From Chloroflexota bacterium (GTDB lineage Bacteria > Chloroflexota > UBA6077 > JACCZL01), in the NCBI GenBank assembly GCA_020850535.1, contig JADZEM010000176.1:1-48095 (forward strand): 48,095 nt of DNA, given 5' to 3'. Every line of letters starts with the position of its first letter. The stretch's first letter is position 1. Below the pieces are notes generated by a model. That model saw only the letters and a list, made by a program, of their open reading frames with translations. It did no database searches and was not told the origin of the DNA. This document shows, one piece after another, positions 35,059 to 48,095 of this stretch. Position numbers and translations under genes: made by a program.

Positions 35059-36204
35059 CTACCAGCGACCTCGTCGTCGCGGATCGAGGGTCGCGTACAT
35101 CGCAAGGAACACGGCGGTGATATCGAGAACGGTGGCCTGGGCGGCTTGCAGCACCAGGGACGACGAGATGGGCTCCCCGGCCAGTCGGGCGCCGGCGCTC
35201 GCCCGCGCGAGGCGCTGGAGCAGGGCCGTCGCGAGCAGCACGCCTGAGGCGGCCGGGGCGATGCGGCCGACCAGCGGCGCGGCAAACGGCAGGGCAACCA
35301 TCGTGCCGTACAGCCCGAAGGCCGTCAGGACGCGTCGCACGTCCATCCAGGCCCCGAAGCGCGGCCCGAGGATCAACAGGTTCTTGTGCCAGCGTTCGTA
35401 CATGCGGAGGTAGCCAGCGGCCTCGGCCGGGTACTCCGAGACGACGCGGCTGTCATGCACGACGCGGATGCGGTAGCCGGCCTGCCGCAACGACTGCGAC
35501 AGGTGGTAGTCCGTGCCGGTTGGCACGTGGGTCTCGAACGCGCCGACACGGTCGAGCACGGCGCGGGTCAGCGCGCAGTTGCGCCCGTGGAGGCCATCGC
35601 CCTCCCGCGGCAGCTGATGGTGCCACCAGCGGTCGATGAGCCACTGGTAGTGCACCAGCCCGGCCCGCCGCTCCTCCTCGCCCGGCTCAGAGAGACCGGT
35701 GGCAACCTCGGCCTCGCCCTGGAGGATCGGTGCCAGCAGCCGGAGGAACGCCTCGTCCACGAGTCGGCAGTCAGCATCCGTCAGCATGATGATGGAGCCG
35801 TGCGCCTCGGCGTAGCAGCGCTGCAAGGCGCGCTGCTTGCCCAGGCCCGGTTCCTGGTACACCACGCGGATCCGGTCTGAGGCCCGCTGGCTGGCAAGCT
35901 CGTAGGTGCCGTCCCGGCCGCCCGCGCAGAGGATCAGCTCGGCGGCCGGGTACGTCAGCGACTCGAAGCTGTCGATCAGCGCGCCGATGGTGTCGCGCTC
36001 GTTCCAGGCGGCCACCAGGACGCTGACGAGCGGCGCGCCTTCTCGGGCTACGCTGTCCACGGTCACGGGGGTTGGCAGCGTCTCGGCCGGGGGCGTCGCA
36101 CGGTACTGCTGCCATGCGCGCCAGCCCGACGCCCCGAGGAGCGCCACCGAGAGCGGCAGCGCCACGGTGTCCAGGAGCTGTCGTGCGCGTCTGACTACTT
36201 CCAT
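35059..36204 (-). CDS. Membrane-associated glycosyltransferase family 2
   Basis: 381 residues. An N-terminal hydrophobic segment (TVALPLSVALLGASGW) is followed by a GT-A domain: LVSVLVAAWNERDTIGALID, the aspartate-rich metal site TDADCRL and the acceptor-side TGTDYHLSQSLRQAGYRI. C-terminal helices (ALLQRLARASAG, VLQAAQATVLDITAVFLAM) anchor it. The layout resembles processive GT2 enzymes. The start overlaps the end of the upstream gene by 10 nt, consistent with one operon. Confidence 0.85.
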   Translation of the reverse strand: MEVVRRARQLLDTVALPLSVALLGASGWRAWQQYRATPPAETLPTPVTVDSVAREGAPLVSVLVAAWNERDTIGALIDSFESLTYPAAELILCAGGRDGTYELASQRASDRIRVVYQEPGLGKQRALQRCYAEAHGSIIMLTDADCRLVDEAFLRLLAPILQGEAEVATGLSEPGEEERRAGLVHYQWLIDRWWHHQLPREGDGLHGRNCALTRAVLDRVGAFETHVPTGTDYHLSQSLRQAGYRIRVVHDSRVVSEYPAEAAGYLRMYERWHKNLLILGPRFGAWMDVRRVLTAFGLYGTMVALPFAAPLVGRIAPAASGVLLATALLQRLARASAGARLAGEPISSSLVLQAAQATVLDITAVFLAMYATLDPRRRGRW

Positions 36205-37589
36205 GCGAGATCCGGCGCGGCGATGGTCGCCCAGGCCGATCCTTTCTCCCAGCGGTAGACCACGTCGTTGGCGACGCGCAGCTCCAGGTGGCGCGGGGTC
36301 TCGGCCCAGACGCCGGTCCCGCGCTCGACGACGCAGGCCGTCTCGTACGCCTCTGAGCGGACGCCCGGCAGCTGCACACCGGGCGGCAGCAGGGTGGTCA
36401 GGAAACGGAACGCCTTGTCGTTCCAGCCGACGACGGGCAGCACGTCGCGCAGGGTTGGGGCAACGGTGGGGCGGCCGGTCGCCGTCTGCGCCGAGAACCC
36501 TTCGGCTGTCGGGAAGGCGCCGGATGGACTCTGCGCCGCCAGCAGCCAGGAGAGGGTCGGTTCGAGGTCCGCCTCGTAGCCGTGTGGGCGCAGCGTCTCG
36601 ATGGCCCGCAGGATGTCGGCCACGCCGGCGATCCAGCGCGGGTAGACGTTCGTCGAGCCGTCGGCGTAGACCACCTGGGCAAAGCCGCCGTCGGCATCGC
36701 GGTACCGCAGCACGAACTCCATCGCTTCGAGGGCGCTGGTCAGATACCGCTCGTCGCTGGAGGCCCGGTAGCCCTCCACCAGGGCCGGCACGCAGCGGGC
36801 CACGTAGAACGGGAACAGCTTCTCGACGCGCTGCGAGCCGTAGGTATTCTGCCAGATGCCGCCCCGCTGCGGGCCGTCCTCGATCTGGTGAGCGCGAATG
36901 TGATCGAGGATCGGCAGGGCGTACCGCTCGATCAGCTCGACGCCGTCCGACGAGACCCGTGCCAGGGCGAGGATCGCCTCGGAAAGGGTGGCGGCCTTGT
37001 TCGGGACGAACGTCGGCGTGGACGGATCGTCCTGGAGCATGCCGCTCTCGCCGTTCCAGAGCCTGCCGAGCTGGGCGACCCGCACGTTCCGCTCGGCGGC
37101 CATCTGGTAGGCTCGCCAGGAATCATCGCCGCGCTCACGGAGTGTGGTGGCCAGTGCCAGCAACGCGATGTCGCAGGCGGCTTCGTGGGGGGTTCCGCCG
37201 GTGTAGGGGTTCAACTCGAAGCAGGAGCTCTCGAAGTGGCCCGAGGGGAGCTGGCCGCCCCGAATGTCGTCGCCGGCCCGCTTCGCCTTCGCGAGCCAGC
37301 GCGCCTCGCCGGTCACCGAGGCGAGGGTCAGGTAGCCGTGGATGATCCCCTCATACCGCCAATCCAGGCCGGGGCCGGTGTACAGCAGACAGTTCTGCCA
37401 CCAGTGCGCGACGGGGCCGGTGTAACCGGACGGACCGCGCATCGTCTCCAGCCAGGCGTCAAGACGCGCGACAGCGAGGCCCAGGGCAGGCCGGTCGTGG
37501 CCCAGGGCAGGCCGGTCGTGGCCCACGTCGGGCTGGCCGTGGCCGATGGCAGGCCGGTCGTGGCCCACGTCGGGCCGGTCCGGGGTCAT
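36195..37589 (-). CDS. Alpha/alpha-barrel-like protein with N-terminal heptapeptide repeats
   Basis: 464 residues from ATG 37589. The first ~40 residues are a repeat of GHDRP-type heptads (see 37479-37583). The rest looks like an (alpha/alpha)6 toroid: WHELIX-like blocks such as WRYEGIIHGYLTLASVTGEA, WLAKAKRAGDDI, GTPHEAACDIALLALATTL and WIAGVADILRAIETLR recur at about 50-60 residue spacing, with aromatic/acidic loops (GHFESSCFELNPYTGG). Such folds occur in glycoside hydrolases, polysaccharide lyases and epimerases. The catalytic class is not assignable. Context suggests trimming or modification of the glycan; no signal peptide is seen. Confidence 0.6.
   Translation of the reverse strand: MTPDRPDVGHDRPAIGHGQPDVGHDRPALGHDRPALGLAVARLDAWLETMRGPSGYTGPVAHWWQNCLLYTGPGLDWRYEGIIHGYLTLASVTGEARWLAKAKRAGDDIRGGQLPSGHFESSCFELNPYTGGTPHEAACDIALLALATTLRERGDDSWRAYQMAAERNVRVAQLGRLWNGESGMLQDDPSTPTFVPNKAATLSEAILALARVSSDGVELIERYALPILDHIRAHQIEDGPQRGGIWQNTYGSQRVEKLFPFYVARCVPALVEGYRASSDERYLTSALEAMEFVLRYRDADGGFAQVVYADGSTNVYPRWIAGVADILRAIETLRPHGYEADLEPTLSWLLAAQSPSGAFPTAEGFSAQTATGRPTVAPTLRDVLPVVGWNDKAFRFLTTLLPPGVQLPGVRSEAYETACVVERGTGVWAETPRHLELRVANDVVYRWEKGSAWATIAAPDLAWK
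37479..37583 (-). repeat. Five in-frame 21-bp repeats inside the alpha/alpha-barrel gene
   Basis: Units at 37479, 37500, 37521, 37542 and 37563, each 21 bp and variants of GCCCAGGGCAGGCCGGTCGTG; the first two are identical. On the coding strand they encode seven-residue repeats of the GHDRPxx type immediately after the start codon. In-frame length preserves the reading frame if the copy number changes. Confidence 0.9.
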
Positions 37590-38365
37590 GGTGCGGCTCC
37601 CGGCTGCGCCGACCAGGCCTGTGGCGGGTGCGCGCGCAGCAGCACCACCGAGCCAAGGTGCGCCAGCCAGCCACGCTCCACGAAGGCGGCCCGCGCGCTG
37701 ACGCCCAGCCGGTCGGCCAGCGCCGGCCTCCGTATGACGGTCGCCGCCCGCTCCAGCACGCTCAGCCCGAGGGCGCGCACGCCCCGAAATCCGAGCGGCG
37801 CGTCGAGGGTCCAGCCCCGGGCCAGCAGCCGGTTGGCGACCGCCCGCCCGCTCAACAGCTCGGTGACCGGGGCGGCTCCAGGGGCGGCTCGCTCGGGCAG
37901 GTTGCGCCCGAGCAGGGGCGTCGTGCAGATGACCAGCAACTGTCCGCGCTCGGCCAGCCGCTCCGAGAGGCTGGCCAGCGTTGTGGGCCACTGGGCGGCC
38001 GTCGGCTCGATCCAGAGGGCCGTGTCGAAGGCTGCCCGCGGGTCGGTTGGCCCGGAGAGGCCGCGCGTGACGACAGTCAGGGCGGCGATGTCGCGGGCGT
38101 CCTCCGGCGCGAGGCTGGCCTGCCCAAACCAGACCCCGCCCAGCCGGCGCATCGCTTCCTGCCCGAGCAGGGGGTGATCGGCAACCACCACGCGGCTGCC
38201 GCCGTGCTCCCAGGCGGCCCGGGCCGCCTGGTCGAGTGCCCACTGGTAGGCGAGGCTCGGGCGGCGGGTCGGCCAGCCGTCGGTCAGGCCGGGCACGGCC
38301 ATGCGCGCAGCGTGCGTCGCCGCGCCTGGGCGGTCAGCCAGCATGGACGGCCGTTGGACCTGCAT
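37586..38365 (-). CDS. Hypothetical protein in glycan cluster, weakly methyltransferase-like
   Basis: 259 residues or fewer; the start is uncertain (38365, 38344 or 38302), and the first two overlap the end of the upstream GT4 gene. Its stop overlaps the next start as ATGA, so translation is coupled. The segments SRVVVADHPLLG, FDTALWIEPTAAQWPTTLAS and ERGQLLVICTTPLLGRN have the strand-helix rhythm of a Rossmann methyltransferase. There is no glycine-rich SAM motif, so it may be a degenerate relative. I do not assign a function. Confidence 0.6.
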   Translation of the reverse strand: MQVQRPSMLADRPGAATHAARMAVPGLTDGWPTRRPSLAYQWALDQAARAAWEHGGSRVVVADHPLLGQEAMRRLGGVWFGQASLAPEDARDIAALTVVTRGLSGPTDPRAAFDTALWIEPTAAQWPTTLASLSERLAERGQLLVICTTPLLGRNLPERAAPGAAPVTELLSGRAVANRLLARGWTLDAPLGFRGVRALGLSVLERAATVIRRPALADRLGVSARAAFVERGWLAHLGSVVLLRAHPPQAWSAQPGAAP

Positions 38366-40681: not shown

Positions 40682-41684
40682 GTGGGATCAGCGAGAGCAG
40701 CAGCCCACGGACCGAGTGCAGGATCACCCCTGCGAAGAACGAGACGTGGCCGACCACCAGCAGCAGCACTGTGATCAGGCCGTAGCCGACGGCAAGCTGT
40801 CCGTAGTTGGTGTAGCGGTCCACGACGAACATCCCGAGGCCGAGACCGGCCAGCAGGATGATCAGGCCCGGCAGCGAGAAGAACAGCAGCGGGTGATGCT
40901 GACCGATCAACCGCATGATGCCGTTGAGGACGATCAGCCCGTGCACGAAGACGTTGCGCTTCGGCGGATCGTCGTACCGAATGATGATGGGGACTTCGGT
41001 CAGCCGCAGCCCGCGCTCGTGGGCCAGAAACTGCATCTCGGACTCGACCGAGAAGCTGCTCGAGCTGAAGCGGAAATTCTCCAGGGCGTGTTGCGAGAAG
41101 GCGCGGAAACCGCTCTGCGAATCGGTGACGGAGACGCCTGACGAGCGGTTGGTGATGAAGTTGAAGACGCGATGGCCCCAGATCCGTGCCAGCGGCACGT
41201 CGCTGGCCGGCTCCAGATAGCGGGAGCCGACGACGATATCAGCTTCGTCGTCCAGGACGGGCCGCACAACCTTCGGGATCTCGGCCGGGATGTGCTGGCC
41301 GTCGGCGTCGAGCGTGACGACGGCGTCCGCCTTGCGCTCTTGAGCGTAGCGAAAGCCGGTCTGCAAGGCGACGCCCTTGCCCTGATTCTCCTCATGCCGG
41401 ACAACGGTTGCGCCGGCCCGGTGCGCGATGTCCGCCGTGGCGTCTGCCGAGCCATCGTCGACGACGATGACCTCGTCGACGTGGGGCAGCACCTTCAGGA
41501 TCACGCTGCCGATGGACCGCTCCTCGTTAAAGGCCGGCACCACGGCGACGACTCGCGGATCAGTCCTGAGCCCTGGCTCGGCGCCCACCTCGCCGAGCAG
41601 CTCGCGGACGGTGTCGCGCGACGCTGGCGTCGCGTGCCGCCCCCAGGGCTCATCTCGCTCTCGTTCCAGTGTGCGCTGACTCAT
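40668..41684 (-). CDS. GT2 polyprenyl-phosphate sugar transferase (DPM/GtrB-like)
   Basis: 338 residues, first gene of the minus-strand glycan cluster, with AGGAG 6-7 nt before ATG 41684. Blocks: VVAVVPAFNEERSIGSVILK, VIVVDDGSADAT, TLDADGQH at the metal site and SGFRAFSQHALENF. Two C-terminal helices (LPGLIILLAGLGLGMFVV, LITVLLLVVGHVSFFAGVIL) are typical of enzymes that load a sugar on undecaprenyl phosphate. That lipid-linked sugar is the donor expected by the GT-C protein at the other end of the cluster, so the two may work in sequence. Confidence 0.88.
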   Translation of the reverse strand: MSQRTLERERDEPWGRHATPASRDTVRELLGEVGAEPGLRTDPRVVAVVPAFNEERSIGSVILKVLPHVDEVIVVDDGSADATADIAHRAGATVVRHEENQGKGVALQTGFRYAQERKADAVVTLDADGQHIPAEIPKVVRPVLDDEADIVVGSRYLEPASDVPLARIWGHRVFNFITNRSSGVSVTDSQSGFRAFSQHALENFRFSSSSFSVESEMQFLAHERGLRLTEVPIIIRYDDPPKRNVFVHGLIVLNGIMRLIGQHHPLLFFSLPGLIILLAGLGLGMFVVDRYTNYGQLAVGYGLITVLLLVVGHVSFFAGVILHSVRGLLLSLIPRGSQ

Positions 41685-42257: not shown

Positions 42258-43139
42258 ATGGCGGTGGGTCTGTGCGACACACCGGAGGCAGCCTCCTTGG
42301 TGCTCTCATCCGTACGCTCGCCCGCTACAAGCGCCGGCCTCTCGAACGGCTGGCCTGGGCGCGCCATCCGCGAGCCATCACGGCGCGATGCCCACTACCT
42401 ACACCTGAAGCGGCTCGTGCTGACGCTGTCGGCTGCCGCGGCGCGCTGTCTGGAGCCGACAGCGACCTATCGGATCCTCGACATCGGCTCCGGGCGGAAG
42501 CCGTATTTCCCGATCTTCGAGCCGTACGCCCGCGAGTACATCGGGGTTGACCCGGGCGATGGTCTCGGCCCAGACGTGCGCGGCGCTGCCGAGCACCTGC
42601 CGTTCGCCGATGCGTCGGCGGATGTCATCGTTTCGACCCAGGTGCTCGAACACGTGGACAACCCGGATGCGACGGTGGCGGAGTGGCGGCGCGTTCTCCG
42701 TCCAGGCGGGCTGGTCATTGCCTCGACGCACGGGATGTACCTGTACCACCCGATCCCGAGCGACCACTGGCGCTGGACCCACACGGGCCTTCGCAAGCTC
42801 TTCGAGCGGAACGGTCTGCGCGTGCAGTCGCTGGAGGCCTGCGAGCGGACGCTCTCGGTCCTGGTGATGCTGCTCGGCATCCACGCATCGACGTTTGCTG
42901 ACCACCACGGCTTTGGCTGGCTGTTCCGAAGCGGGCTGGCAGGGGTACATGCGCTCATCGACCGCATCGACGGTGTCTCGACGAGCCAGGCCATTCCCGA
43001 TAGTGCGCTTCGCTGGGGGGCGATGCCCTGCTCGTACGTGATCGTCGCCGAGCAGCCATCTGGCGATCCGCCGCAGGACGCCGCGCCAGCGCCGCTGCCG
43101 GCGGACTGTCCGGCTGCGCGCATCCCGACGCTCGTCTGA
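42258..43139 (+). CDS. Class I SAM-dependent methyltransferase
   Basis: 293 residues. SAM motif I is YRILDIGSGRKPYFPIFEPY near residue 71, then YIGVDPGDG, the post-I block AAEHLPFADASADVIVSTQVL and EHVDNPDATVAEWRRVLRPGG, as in methyltransferase type 11. The tail (residues 190-293) is unusual, with Pro/Ala-rich sequence at the end. The N-terminal ~40 residues look weak in this frame, while the overlapping frame from 42224 encodes a more protein-like LARYKRRPLERLAWARHPRA. A frame error or frameshift near 42380 is possible. Likely role: O- or N-methylation of a sugar or lipid intermediate in the glycan locus. Confidence 0.82.
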   Translation: MAVGLCDTPEAASLVLSSVRSPATSAGLSNGWPGRAIREPSRRDAHYLHLKRLVLTLSAAAARCLEPTATYRILDIGSGRKPYFPIFEPYAREYIGVDPGDGLGPDVRGAAEHLPFADASADVIVSTQVLEHVDNPDATVAEWRRVLRPGGLVIASTHGMYLYHPIPSDHWRWTHTGLRKLFERNGLRVQSLEACERTLSVLVMLLGIHASTFADHHGFGWLFRSGLAGVHALIDRIDGVSTSQAIPDSALRWGAMPCSYVIVAEQPSGDPPQDAAPAPLPADCPAARIPTLV

Positions 43140-43232
43140 GCCAACCGCTTTCACCTTCACCCCGGCAGCCGGCCGCTCTGCGACTGGCCGCCGCCGTGCC
43201 CAAGACCATCGAGAGGGAGACCGCAACACAGC

Positions 43233-43790
43233 ATGAAGTTCATCGACACCGGCCTCAAGGACGCCTACAGCATCGAACTGGAGCCGATCTCCGATCAGCG
43301 AGGCTTCTTTGCACGGATCTTCTGCGTGGACGAGATGCGCGCCCTGGGGATGGAGACGGACATCGTGCAGGTCAACATGTCCCACAATCTCCGGAAGGGC
43401 GTCGTCCGTGGGATGCACTATCAGGTTGCGCCAGCGCCCGAGGCGAAGCTGATGCGGTGCATCCGTGGGGCCATCTACGATGTGATCGTGGACATGCGCG
43501 AGGACTCGCCGACCTACCTGCAGTGGTTCGGCATCGAGCTGAGCGCTGAGAATCGCAAGGCGCTGTACGTCCCGCCGATGTTCGCGCACGGCTACCAGGC
43601 ATTGACGGACGGCGCTGAGGTCTTCTACCCGACGACGGGCGTCTACACGCCGTCCTGCGAGCGCGGCATCCGCCACGACGATCCGGCCATCGGCATCCAG
43701 TGGCCGATCCCGCCCACCGAGATCTCGGCCAAGGATCAGTCGTGGCCTCTGCTGATTGTTGAGCGGCGGACGCCGGTGGCGGCACGCTGA
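43233..43790 (+). CDS. RfbC/RmlC-like dTDP-4-keto-6-deoxysugar epimerase family protein
   Basis: 185 residues, the normal length of this cupin-fold family. Conserved blocks: ISDQRGFFARIFCVDEM, HNLRKGVVRGMHYQ with the active-site histidine H62, DVIVDMREDSPTYLQW, LYVPPMFAHGYQAL and ERGIRHDDPAIGIQWP. In the segment that usually reads TTDYYxPxxE, this protein has TTGVYTPSCE, so one tyrosine of the pair is replaced by valine. It may be a 3,5-epimerase or a related 3- or 5-epimerase with altered specificity. Its stop overlaps the next ATG (TGATG), coupling it to the small membrane protein. Confidence 0.85.
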   Translation: MKFIDTGLKDAYSIELEPISDQRGFFARIFCVDEMRALGMETDIVQVNMSHNLRKGVVRGMHYQVAPAPEAKLMRCIRGAIYDVIVDMREDSPTYLQWFGIELSAENRKALYVPPMFAHGYQALTDGAEVFYPTTGVYTPSCERGIRHDDPAIGIQWPIPPTEISAKDQSWPLLIVERRTPVAAR

Positions 43791-44032
43791 TGTTTCCCAC
43801 CTACGGCCCGTGGACCCGCCTCCTCGAAACGACGGACCCGACGAACGCCGGTCTGGGGCCGCTGGTGGCGGTGATCGTCGTCCTGATCCTGCTGGTGCTG
43901 AAGGACGCGACCGGCGGCGTGCTCGACGCCGGCTCGAACCGGTTCGCGCGGGGGTTGACGATCGCCGTGGTCCCGCTGGCGATCGCCTTTCTGTGGATCG
44001 CCGGGGCACAGCTGCTGGTGGTGATTCGCTGA
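43790..44032 (+). CDS. Small two-helix membrane protein
   Basis: 80 residues starting inside the stop codon of the epimerase gene. Two hydrophobic segments are clear: LGPLVAVIVVLILLVLKDA and GLTIAVVPLAIAFLWIAGAQLL, joined by a short charged loop (GSNRFARG). No known motif. Translational coupling suggests a role in the glycan pathway, for example as a small membrane scaffold, but this is only inferred. Repeat element copy 3 begins 19 nt after the stop. Confidence 0.75.
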   Translation: MFPTYGPWTRLLETTDPTNAGLGPLVAVIVVLILLVLKDATGGVLDAGSNRFARGLTIAVVPLAIAFLWIAGAQLLVVIR

Positions 44033-44050: not shown

Positions 44051-44267
44051 CAGGGCGATTGCATGTTGATGTCGTCGTGCGGCGTAGGCGGGGCTTTCAA
44101 GCCCCGCCTACGATCCTGCAGTCGCTGCGCGACGCGCCAGTCGCACCAGTGCCTGCCGTTCCCTGCGTCCGTCGCGCAGCGACGGTGTGACTGTAGGCGG
44201 GGGTTTCAACCCCCGACCGCCCGTTCCATGATGCTTCGGGGACACCAATCAACATGCCATCGCCCTG
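44051..44267. repeat. TIR element, copy 3 (complete, one A-type and one B-type end)
   Basis: 217 bp. The left end is A-type (CAGGGCGATTGCATG, then GTCGTCGTGC). The right end is B-type (CCGTTCCATGATGCTTCGGG, then ATGCCATCGCCCTG). Inside are the GGGGCTTTCAAGCCCC and GGGGGTTTCAACCCCC hairpins and CGTCGCGCAGCGACG. It is flanked by identical 10-bp sequences, CCCTCACCCC, at 44041-44050 and 44268-44277, which looks like a target-site duplication inside a CCCTCACCCC palindrome. Confidence 0.88.
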
Positions 44268-44348: not shown

Positions 44349-46715
44349 TTACGGAAGCTGCGTCAGCACCACGTCGTCGATCCACGCGGCGCCGCTCGTC
44401 ATATCCCACAGGATGTCGAGCCGGCCGCCGGCGAAGGTCGCCGGCAACGTGAAGGTGGCCGTCTGCTGGGTCCAGTTCGACGTGCCGGTGGTGTAGTTCG
44501 TCAGGCCGAAGATCTGGGTGCTTGGCGAGGTCTGCGGGTAGCGCATCGCGATGCCCTTGCCGACCACGCCCTGGGTCTTGACCCAGAACGACAGCCTGTA
44601 CGATTTTCCAGCTATCAGTTGCAGGCCCTGGAACGAGTAGGTATCGGCCGAGCCAGACACCTTCAGCGAGCCCGCCGCTGCGTGGCCGGTCGTGCTGTCC
44701 CAGGAGCCAGACGGGCGTGCCTGCCAGTTGGCGGGGAACGTCCCGTTCGGCGTGCTGAAGTTGCCGTTGGTCACGAGGTTGACGGACGCTGGCGTGGCCG
44801 TCGGCGGCGCAGCGGTCGGGGTCTTTGTCGGGGTGGCCGTCGCCGGGGCCGAGGTCGGCGTCTTCGTGGCGGTGGCCGTCGGGCTGGGGGTGGAGGTTGC
44901 GGCGGCTGCCGTCGTGGGGGTTGCCGTTGGTGGGTCAGAGCTGCCCGTGCCGCCGGTGTAGCCCAGCTCTGCCAGGACGATGTCGTCCAGCCAGACGTTG
45001 CCGCCGGCGATGTCCCACTGGATGTCCAGTCGGCCGCCGGCCCAGGTGCTGGGCACGTTGAGGGTGGTGACCACGCTGGTCCAGTCCGTGGTGCCGTTGA
45101 CCGGCGGCGGGATCTTGAGGATCGCCGTGGAGGGCTGGAGCTGCACGAAGCGCATGGTGGCGCCCTGGCCGGTGACGTTCTCGGTCTTGATCCAGTAGGT
45201 CAGCAGGTAGGACGCGCCCGGACGGACGGTCAGCGGGGACTGCGAGTAGGTGCTCGACGCGCCGCTGATCTTGAACGAGCCGGGGGCGTTCCGACCGACC
45301 GTCCCATCCCAGCTTGCGGACGGGCGCACCTGCCAGCCGCTGGGGAAGCCGCTGGTCGCGCTGGTGAAGTCACCGTTCACGACCACGTTCGGCCCCATGC
45401 CAGCGGGCGTCGGGGTCGGGCCAGCCTGCGGCGGGAAGGGCACCAGCTCGAAGAGCTTGCCATCGCCCGGCTCGAAGGGGATCGGCGTGCCAAGATCGAA
45501 GATCTCGCCGGTCTCGACATCCTTGAGGCGGCCGGAGAGCGTCGGCGCGAGCACAGAGATCGGCGTGGCCGACGAGCAGCTGCTGGTGTTCACGACGACG
45601 GCGTACTGCTTCGAGCTGTCTGCCGTGGTCATGGTGCTGATGTACGCGCCCGGTGCGCCGGACGTGATGAACTGATCGTCCACGCGGTGCAGCCCGAGGA
45701 AGGTGGAGCGGAGCGGTCGGGTTCGGGCCGCCTGCGCGCCGATCTCGGCGAAGAGGGTCGGGTTGTCCTTCAGGCCCGTCCAGCCCTGCTGACTGCTGTA
45801 GGCGTACCAGAAGATGCCGGTGGCCCCTTCGCCAAGCGCCATCCAGTGCTGGGCGCGCACCTCAGGCACGGAGGGCGTGCGGAGAGAGTAGGCGCCGCCG
45901 GTGCCGACGTTGTGGGTCTGGAGCACCAGCCAGAGCGGCTTGTTGGCCGGCCGGTTCGCGTTCATCCGGCGGACATAGTCCGCGAACGTGAATGTTGGGT
46001 AGCCGAAGCCGGTCATCATGAAGTTGCAGGGCGGGTTGTCCGCGCCGACCGGGTAGACATCGGCCAGGAGCATGTTGGCGCCGGAGGCCGCGAAGATCTG
46101 GTCGCCGCGGTTGACGCCGATGACCAGCGGGGCCGCGCGGCGGGCCGGGTCGCGCTCCTGGAACGCCTGTGTGGCGTAGCGGACCTTGTCGGTCTGCTCG
46201 TTGTGCGGCTCGTCGGCGACGTTGTACCCCTTGACGCTCGGGTGCGCCTTGACGCGGTCCACGAGCGGGTAGACGACGGTGCGGGCCTGCGCGATGGTCG
46301 CGGGCACGCCCACGTCGTACCACTGGGAGTGCAGCTCGGCCTGGGGGCCGAAGATCACATTGAACCCGAGGCTGTCCGAGACGCTCAGCATCGCCTCGTC
46401 GCGGATGGCCGAGTTGTTGTTGAAGAGGACGGTATCAAGCCCCTGGGCCTGCGAGTCGCGGATGAGCCGGTCGAAGTTCGCCGGCTTGCCGAAGATCATG
46501 TTGCCGTCGTCGAAAATGCCGAGCGGGAAGGAATCAGCAAGGGCGTCGGCTGGCGCGGCCACGGGGGCAGCGGCGGGGGCCGCCTGGACCGGCGGGACGG
46601 GGCTGGTGGTGGGCATGGCGATGCTGGCAACGATGGCGAGCAGGGCGGTGAGGCTGCCCAGCTGCTTGAGCCAGCCCCATGAGGGGGGACGATGATGGTG
46701 CGATGGGGTGTTCAC
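44349..46715 (-). CDS. Secreted glycosidase-like protein with two carbohydrate-binding modules
   Basis: 788 residues starting at GTG 46715. The signal peptide includes LGSLTALLAIVASIAMP and probably ends near VQAAPA. Residues ~60-340 look like a TIM-barrel glycoside-hydrolase-type domain with VKGYNVADEPHNEQ (a DEP acid motif) and GATGIFWYAYSSQQGW. A beta domain follows. Two copies of a CBM4/9 (CenC-like) module then occur, NVVVNGDFTS... near 455-605 and NLVTNGNFSTP... near 655-788, each ending with (I/L)W(L/I)DD(I/V)VL. They are separated by a Pro/Thr-rich linker (TATPTKTPTAAPPTATP). The substrate is unknown. Its leader carries a cyclic di-GMP riboswitch, so production probably responds to c-di-GMP. 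Confidence 0.85.
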   Translation of the reverse strand: MNTPSHHHRPPSWGWLKQLGSLTALLAIVASIAMPTTSPVPPVQAAPAAAPVAAPADALADSFPLGIFDDGNMIFGKPANFDRLIRDSQAQGLDTVLFNNNSAIRDEAMLSVSDSLGFNVIFGPQAELHSQWYDVGVPATIAQARTVVYPLVDRVKAHPSVKGYNVADEPHNEQTDKVRYATQAFQERDPARRAAPLVIGVNRGDQIFAASGANMLLADVYPVGADNPPCNFMMTGFGYPTFTFADYVRRMNANRPANKPLWLVLQTHNVGTGGAYSLRTPSVPEVRAQHWMALGEGATGIFWYAYSSQQGWTGLKDNPTLFAEIGAQAARTRPLRSTFLGLHRVDDQFITSGAPGAYISTMTTADSSKQYAVVVNTSSCSSATPISVLAPTLSGRLKDVETGEIFDLGTPIPFEPGDGKLFELVPFPPQAGPTPTPAGMGPNVVVNGDFTSATSGFPSGWQVRPSASWDGTVGRNAPGSFKISGASSTYSQSPLTVRPGASYLLTYWIKTENVTGQGATMRFVQLQPSTAILKIPPPVNGTTDWTSVVTTLNVPSTWAGGRLDIQWDIAGGNVWLDDIVLAELGYTGGTGSSDPPTATPTTAAAATSTPSPTATATKTPTSAPATATPTKTPTAAPPTATPASVNLVTNGNFSTPNGTFPANWQARPSGSWDSTTGHAAAGSLKVSGSADTYSFQGLQLIAGKSYRLSFWVKTQGVVGKGIAMRYPQTSPSTQIFGLTNYTTGTSNWTQQTATFTLPATFAGGRLDILWDMTSGAAWIDDVVLTQLP

Positions 46716-46772
46716 GTTGAGACACGTCCTGCCTGAGAACAGGCAGCCACCACCCCATAGACGTGTCCTGGA
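46716..46772 (-). promoter_or_regulatory. Nested stem structure between riboswitch and GTG start
   Basis: On the coding strand, GACACGTC (46767-46760) is perfectly complementary to GACGTGTC (46728-46721). Inside lies a hairpin TGCCTG-TTCT-CAGGCA (46745-46730). The AGGA that is the likely Shine-Dalgarno site overlaps the junction of the two stems, about 10 nt before GTG 46715. Folding could hide the site, so this looks like a translational expression platform. Confidence 0.6.
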
Positions 46773-46779
46773 TCAGCGG

Positions 46780-46875
46780 CTGCCACTTCGGTAGCCCGGC
46801 TATCGTTCCCGTTGCGGGGGTAGACCCGTGGCTTTGCGTCGCGGCCTTTCGACCGTTTTGCCTTTATCGGTGCGA
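46780..46875 (-). ncRNA. Cyclic di-GMP-I (GEMM-I) riboswitch
   Basis: Read on the minus strand, the element has all landmarks of the GEMM-I aptamer in order. A closing stem pairs GCAC (46873-46870) with GUGGC (46786-46782), with one bulge. Then come GGCAAAAC, a stem capped by the GAAA tetraloop (GGUC-GAAA-GGCC), the conserved core GACGCAAAGCCACGGGUCUA and a short variable hairpin (CCCGCAACGGG). The other half of the receptor helix follows, AUAGCCGGGCUACCG. It lies in the leader of the secreted glycosidase-like gene, 65 nt before its GTG, on the same strand. The known ligand of this class is bis-(3'-5')-cyclic di-GMP. A few members sense cGAMP, which cannot be excluded by eye. Confidence 0.92.
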
Positions 46876-47026: not shown

Positions 47027-47048
47027 TGAGAGTTTCATAACACTCTCA
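47027..47048. promoter_or_regulatory. Inverted repeat in low-GC divergent gap
   Basis: TGAGAGT at 47027-47033 and ACTCTCA at 47042-47048 form a perfect 7-bp dyad with an 8-nt spacer (TTCATAAC). It lies in the AT-richer part of the gap between the riboswitch and the YdcF-type gene and may be an operator. I see no convincing promoter pair for either gene. Confidence 0.4.
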
Positions 47049-47886: not shown

Positions 47887-48095
47887 CAGGGCGATGGCAT
47901 GTTCATTGGTGTCCCTGAAGCATCATGGAACGGGCGGTCGGGGACTGAAGTCCCCGCCTACCGTCACACCGTCGCTGCGCGACGGCCGCCGGGAACGGCC
48001 GGCACTGGTGCGACTGGAGCGTCGCGCAGCGACTGCAGGATGGTAGGCGGGGCTTTCAAGCCCCGACGCGGCGGCACGACGCGCTCAACATACGA
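47887..48095. repeat. TIR element, copy 4 (cut by window end)
   Basis: It begins with a B-type end (CAGGGCGATGGCATG, then TGAAGCATCATGGAACGG). It then has GGGGACTGAAGTCCCC, GTCGCTGCGCGACGG, CGTCGCGCAGCGAC and GGGGCTTTCAAGCCCC, and reaches an A-type end (GACGCGGCGGCACGACG). It is therefore the inverted form of the copy 3 layout. Only the last few bases are missing. Confidence 0.87.

Follow-up and report, generated by a model that had tools for sequence, protein, structure and literature searches.

Class I c-di-GMP riboswitches located ahead of genes for secreted glycan-active proteins are an already known arrangement. In Vibrio cholerae, the c-di-GMP-I riboswitch Vc1 precedes gbpA, which encodes a secreted glycan-binding protein and which it regulates positively (PMC4744006), and in Aeromonas hydrophila a putative chitinase gene has been noted to follow a c-di-GMP riboswitch (PMC6366702). 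The locus described here, in a 48,095-nucleotide stretch of a Chloroflexota genome (hereafter the window), resembles the former in that a class I aptamer leads the gene of a secreted carbohydrate-binding protein, and the latter in that a c-di-GMP riboswitch lies before the gene of a putatively glycan-degrading enzyme. The differences are also clear: GbpA belongs to another protein family and binds GlcNAc-containing surfaces, while the A. hydrophila gene occurs in another phylum and encodes a chitinase rather than a member of the unclassified family found here. The initial annotation presented the link between c-di-GMP and this gene family as not known to be described; the family is indeed new, but the arrangement had been published for gbpA and noted for the chitinase gene. 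Novel features are the gene family, the apparent duplication of the unit of aptamer and gene and, as far as the literature searched shows, the host phylum; that search found no studies of c-di-GMP riboswitches in Chloroflexota. The locus also provides this phylum with a c-di-GMP target open to direct testing.

A cmscan search of the whole window placed the aptamer at 46787-46872 on the minus strand, as a full-length match to RF01051 (c-di-GMP-I; model positions 1-87 of 87) that scores 81.2 bits, where the gathering cut-off is 35 (E=1.6e-14). The match recurred when the search was rerun with a 601-nt stretch, and no other Rfam match occurs in the 48 kb. The GEMM-I aptamer that had been proposed within 46716-46875 is thereby confirmed, by the very Infernal search with RF01051 that had been suggested as a check and with a score far over the cut-off. 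The aptamer displays a GAAA tetraloop, the conserved GACGCAAAGCC core and a G at 46862; GGCAAA, the GAAA loop, GACGCAAAGCCACGG and AGCCGGGCUACCGA agree with the RF01051 consensus line, and all are present in the aptamer of a paralogous locus in the same genome. The statement that every conserved landmark is in place holds for the core and the tetraloop but slightly overreaches, as one helix pair is a non-standard A-C. Model score, a ligand-binding core with GAAA tetraloop, and location in a 5′ leader with an expression platform (71 nt separate the 3′ end of the aptamer from the GTG at 46715) all assign the element to the c-di-GMP-I class. Very probably, then, the element is a true class I c-di-GMP riboswitch and governs translation of one secreted protein.

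The 788-residue secreted protein

The gene behind the leader (44349-46715, minus strand) was delineated from its open reading frame, Pfam, AlphaFold2 and Foldseek, and encodes a 788-aa secreted protein with a signal peptide, a TIM-barrel glycosidase-like domain with beta-sandwich (about residues 65-440), and two CBM_4_9 modules, with a Thr/Pro-rich linker between. The GTG at 46715 is the only ATG, GTG or TTG after the in-frame stop at 46775, the N-terminus is hydrophobic and signal-peptide-like, and the CBM_4_9 family (PF02018) matches two stretches with 55.9 bits against a Pfam cut-off of 25.9. The initial description of a secreted glycosidase-like protein with two carbohydrate-binding modules is therefore borne out in length, N-terminus and modules, whereas its glycosidase part is a matter of fold: no glycosidase family scored over its cut-off in Pfam or NCBIfam, the best sub-threshold matches being GH42 (E 0.06) and beta-glucuronidase (E 0.04), and the label ‘glycosidase-like’ derives solely from the predicted structure. 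The AlphaFold2 model (13 homologues; pLDDT 92) shows a TIM barrel plus beta-sandwich, for which Foldseek returned GH140 and GH5-annotated enzymes as best matches, led by GH140. The GH140 apiosidase 8t9w and BT_1012 (5msy) likewise consist of a TIM barrel followed by a beta-sandwich, but the similarity is distant (TM about 0.6, 11-14% identity) and the family in the window is set apart by a Gln at strand beta-7.

Enzymes of clan GH-A carry one catalytic Glu where strand beta-4 ends and another, the nucleophile, where beta-7 ends, and substrate-assisted hexosaminidases use Asp-Glu dyads. Among 13 aligned members of the present family, Asp168-Glu169 is invariant at the end of beta-4, but the end of beta-7 is occupied by an equally invariant Gln266 (model Q202; 13 of 13), and the clan GH-A pattern of Glu at both strand ends is not found. 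Alignment and model would fit either a hydrolase whose second residue differs from the clan rule or a protein that only binds. Were it a secreted glycan-binding adhesin with a retained glycosidase fold but no glycosidase activity, this would account for Gln266 at the nucleophile position, the two carbohydrate-binding modules and the sub-threshold glycosidase profiles; we nevertheless regard this as unlikely, since the beta-4 Asp-Glu pair, whose placement resembles that of the acid/base sites of clan GH-A or of the hexosaminidase Asp-Glu dyads, is invariant, and many conserved polar residues of the barrel suggest an active site.

The barrel (45366-46523, minus strand) and its 12 homologues form an unclassified TIM-barrel family with the beta-7 Gln and the beta-4 Asp-Glu pair. 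Barrel homologues were found in 4 of 400 sampled Chloroflexota genomes, and further ones in other Chloroflexota MAGs, a Daviesbacteria MAG, Paenibacillus agaridevorans and P. eucommiae; in several of the Chloroflexota homologues the barrel appears, by eye, to be fused to a beta-helix-like domain. For this glycosidase-like family with its unusual active-site strand, the pairing of riboswitch and gene offers a route to the substrate.

A second copy and the genomic neighbourhood

The genome (7.65 Mb, 227 contigs) contains only two c-di-GMP-I matches. The second (contig C86, 30898-30982, minus strand, 78.8 bits) immediately precedes a paralogue of the 788-aa gene, the proteins being 67% identical over 569 aa, and no other pair within their gene family is as similar as the two aptamer-bearing genes. 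The best-scoring model is RF03167 (c-di-GMP-I-GGC) for C86 and RF01051 for the window, both of which belong to one Rfam clan. In the leader alignment the aptamers are 85% identical (74 of 87 columns; 93% in the 3′ part), compared with 39% in the 5′ flank and 44% in the rest of the leader plus start, which argues that the RNA is under selection. Consistent with this, in a blastn comparison of the two regions the strongest matches were two separate islands, the coding sequence and the aptamer (88 nt, 86%), and a G-C pair of the GAAA-capped helix in the window is replaced by A-U in C86, a compensatory change. Tentatively, aptamer and gene may have been duplicated as a unit in which both are conserved and the sequence between and around them is free to drift. 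A plasmid search with the leader as query returned no match.

The check proposed at the outset, for the same leader in orthologues, succeeded for this in-genome paralogue but not elsewhere: cmscan detected a c-di-GMP riboswitch at none of 12 homologue loci (within about 6 kb; about 300 nt upstream at L077 and L081; L086 outside the scan).

The window locus had also been described as adjacent to a surface-glycan locus, and it had been suggested that c-di-GMP controls how the cell remodels or binds its own exopolysaccharide. Glycosyltransferase genes do occur nearby on the same strand, beginning at 41684 with more to 32561 (Pfam), but three plus-strand ORFs intervene, namely a methyltransferase-like ORF (42258-43139), a dTDP-sugar epimerase-like ORF (43233-43790) and a small membrane ORF (43790-44032), as read from their translations. 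Because these lie on the opposite strand, the riboswitch gene is not expected to be co-transcribed with the glycosyltransferase operon, and membership in that operon was rejected; the gene is most likely monocistronic and convergent with its neighbours. A 536-aa minus-strand ORF (42399-44009) was rejected as the next gene, having no Pfam match and being antisense to plausible plus-strand genes.

Exopolysaccharide is commonly under c-di-GMP control in other bacteria, and the CBM_4_9 modules would suit a riboswitch that serves the neighbouring surface-glycan locus; beyond these general considerations, proximity is the sole point in favour of the exopolysaccharide link. Against it stand the intervening ORFs, the 12 homologue loci without the leader, and the C86 paralogue, which has the same RNA but is surrounded by ApbE, histidine kinase, molybdopterin-binding oxidoreductase and Usp genes, with no glycan genes nearby. 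The link is thus not supported and we consider it improbable; the protein may act on a substrate other than exopolysaccharide made by the cell itself.

Two further features of this neighbourhood were recorded. Within the glycosyltransferase operon, a 682-aa ORF (36195-38243) has a pectate-lyase match, at sub-threshold level only. A 205-nt palindromic dispersed repeat occurs at 44063-44267 and 47887-48091 in two inverted copies (89% complementary) that flank the riboswitch gene and a DUF218 ORF. Dozens of further copies exist in the genome at 86-93% identity, many at contig ends; the flanking pair is therefore not read as meaningful, and a mobile cassette was rejected on the same ground.

Ligand and expression platform

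An A at the equivalent of Vc2 G20 is the mark of cGAMP sensors. At the position that we take to be this equivalent, RF01051 model position 11 (46862), the window has an unpaired G ahead of the first-helix GC, which favours c-di-GMP over cGAMP. With 26 GGDEF and 19 EAL matches, the genome is by its domain content equipped to make and break c-di-GMP, the likely ligand of the window aptamer. That the aptamer is instead a 3′,3′-cGAMP sensor of the GEMM-Ib type is very improbable given the G at 46862, as in c-di-GMP aptamers, and the numerous GGDEF and EAL domains, even though cGAMP sensors belong to the same fold family and the G/A position has been described as influencing selectivity without acting as a strict filter (PMC9262584).

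The putative expression platform (46716-46786, minus strand) was assigned from sequence and from the distance that separates the aptamer from the start codon. The riboswitch strand shows neither a U-tract nor a terminator-like site, and a transcription terminator was accordingly rejected as the main mechanism. The platform includes a candidate hairpin, CTGCCTG-TTCT-CAGGCAG (46729-46746, minus strand), a perfect 7-bp helix that appears in some predicted folds and whose 3′ arm contains the beginning of AGGA (46727-46730), a weak putative Shine-Dalgarno sequence 11 nt before the GTG. Outer arms at 46760-46767 and 46721-46728 (GACACGTC/GACGTGTC) could extend this hairpin across the remaining AGGA. 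The C86 leader has a counterpart at the equivalent place, CCTGT..ACAGG, with the Shine-Dalgarno sequence AGGAG in its 3′ arm and the same 11-nt spacing, here to an ATG. The lack of a U-tract terminator, together with a hairpin whose 3′ arm lies over the Shine-Dalgarno sequence in both leaders, makes translational control by the window leader likely.

The predicted minimum-energy structure contains a competing 11-bp helix (46742-46784, minus strand) that pairs 46774-46784 (GGCAGCCGCTG) with 46742-46752 (TGGTGGCTGCC) and would be mutually exclusive with the Shine-Dalgarno hairpin. It is not conserved as such in C86, where the 3′ strand of the aptamer, GGCUACCG, is instead complementary to CGGUAGCC right before the hairpin; overall the two platforms are only 44% identical and their competing helices differ. 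When the aptamer was enforced in folding, predicted accessibility of the Shine-Dalgarno sequence in C86 dropped from about 0.2-0.4 to 0.03-0.09, whereas no consistent effect was seen for the window leader. In the window leader the ligand-free aptamer fold is predicted to be less stable than the minimum-energy structure by about 1.5-4 kcal/mol, and the 201-nt leader folds no better than shuffled sequences (z -0.37).

We propose that c-di-GMP binding would alter whether the 71-nt platform forms the hairpin covering the Shine-Dalgarno sequence, and that secretion of the glycosidase-like, carbohydrate-binding protein would thereby be tuned to the sessile or motile state. The reduced accessibility predicted for C86 inclines us slightly towards a ligand that turns the gene off. 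Both directions have been published: Cd1 works as an OFF switch, and the pilM riboswitch is of the ON type (PMC9262584). Upstream of the leader, an AT-richer stretch holds an inverted repeat (47027-47048; TGAGAGT-gttatgaa-ACTCTCA), possibly a regulator or promoter site.

Class I leaders across Chloroflexota

The c-di-GMP-I class was found in 89 of 400 Chloroflexota genomes. A signal-peptide-like ORF follows 39 of the 49 leaders that have a downstream ORF, as against 8 of 40 background ORFs taken from the upstream flanks (Fisher p=1.6e-8), a value that overstates independence because signal peptides were called by a crude, simple hydrophobicity rule on mechanically called ORFs, the species are related, and the two leaders of the window genome are included. 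The Pfam domains encoded downstream comprise GH113, GH5, GH16, subtilases (S8), trypsin-like, transglutaminase, WxL and sortase; RuvB and histidine kinases are non-secreted exceptions. The closest parallels within the phylum are the leaders L007 (GH113), L010 (GH5) and L021 (GH16), in which the same RNA class precedes a gene for a secreted glycoside hydrolase, but these differ from the window in both glycosidase family and leader.

These counts indicate that most c-di-GMP riboswitches of Chloroflexota lie ahead of genes for exported enzymes or surface proteins. It is possible, although we put it forward with less than even confidence, that the class I riboswitches constitute a phylum-wide control of the secretome, directed at exported hydrolases and surface proteins, of which the window shows one unit duplicated together with its gene.

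Several of the Chloroflexota loci among L003-L030 and L095-L117 are tandem aptamers. At L028 and L114 (G033:C1:2991443-2991540 and G170:C23, respectively), tandem c-di-GMP-I aptamers immediately precede ruvB; such a target is unexpected, and the aptamers could instead serve another nearby gene.
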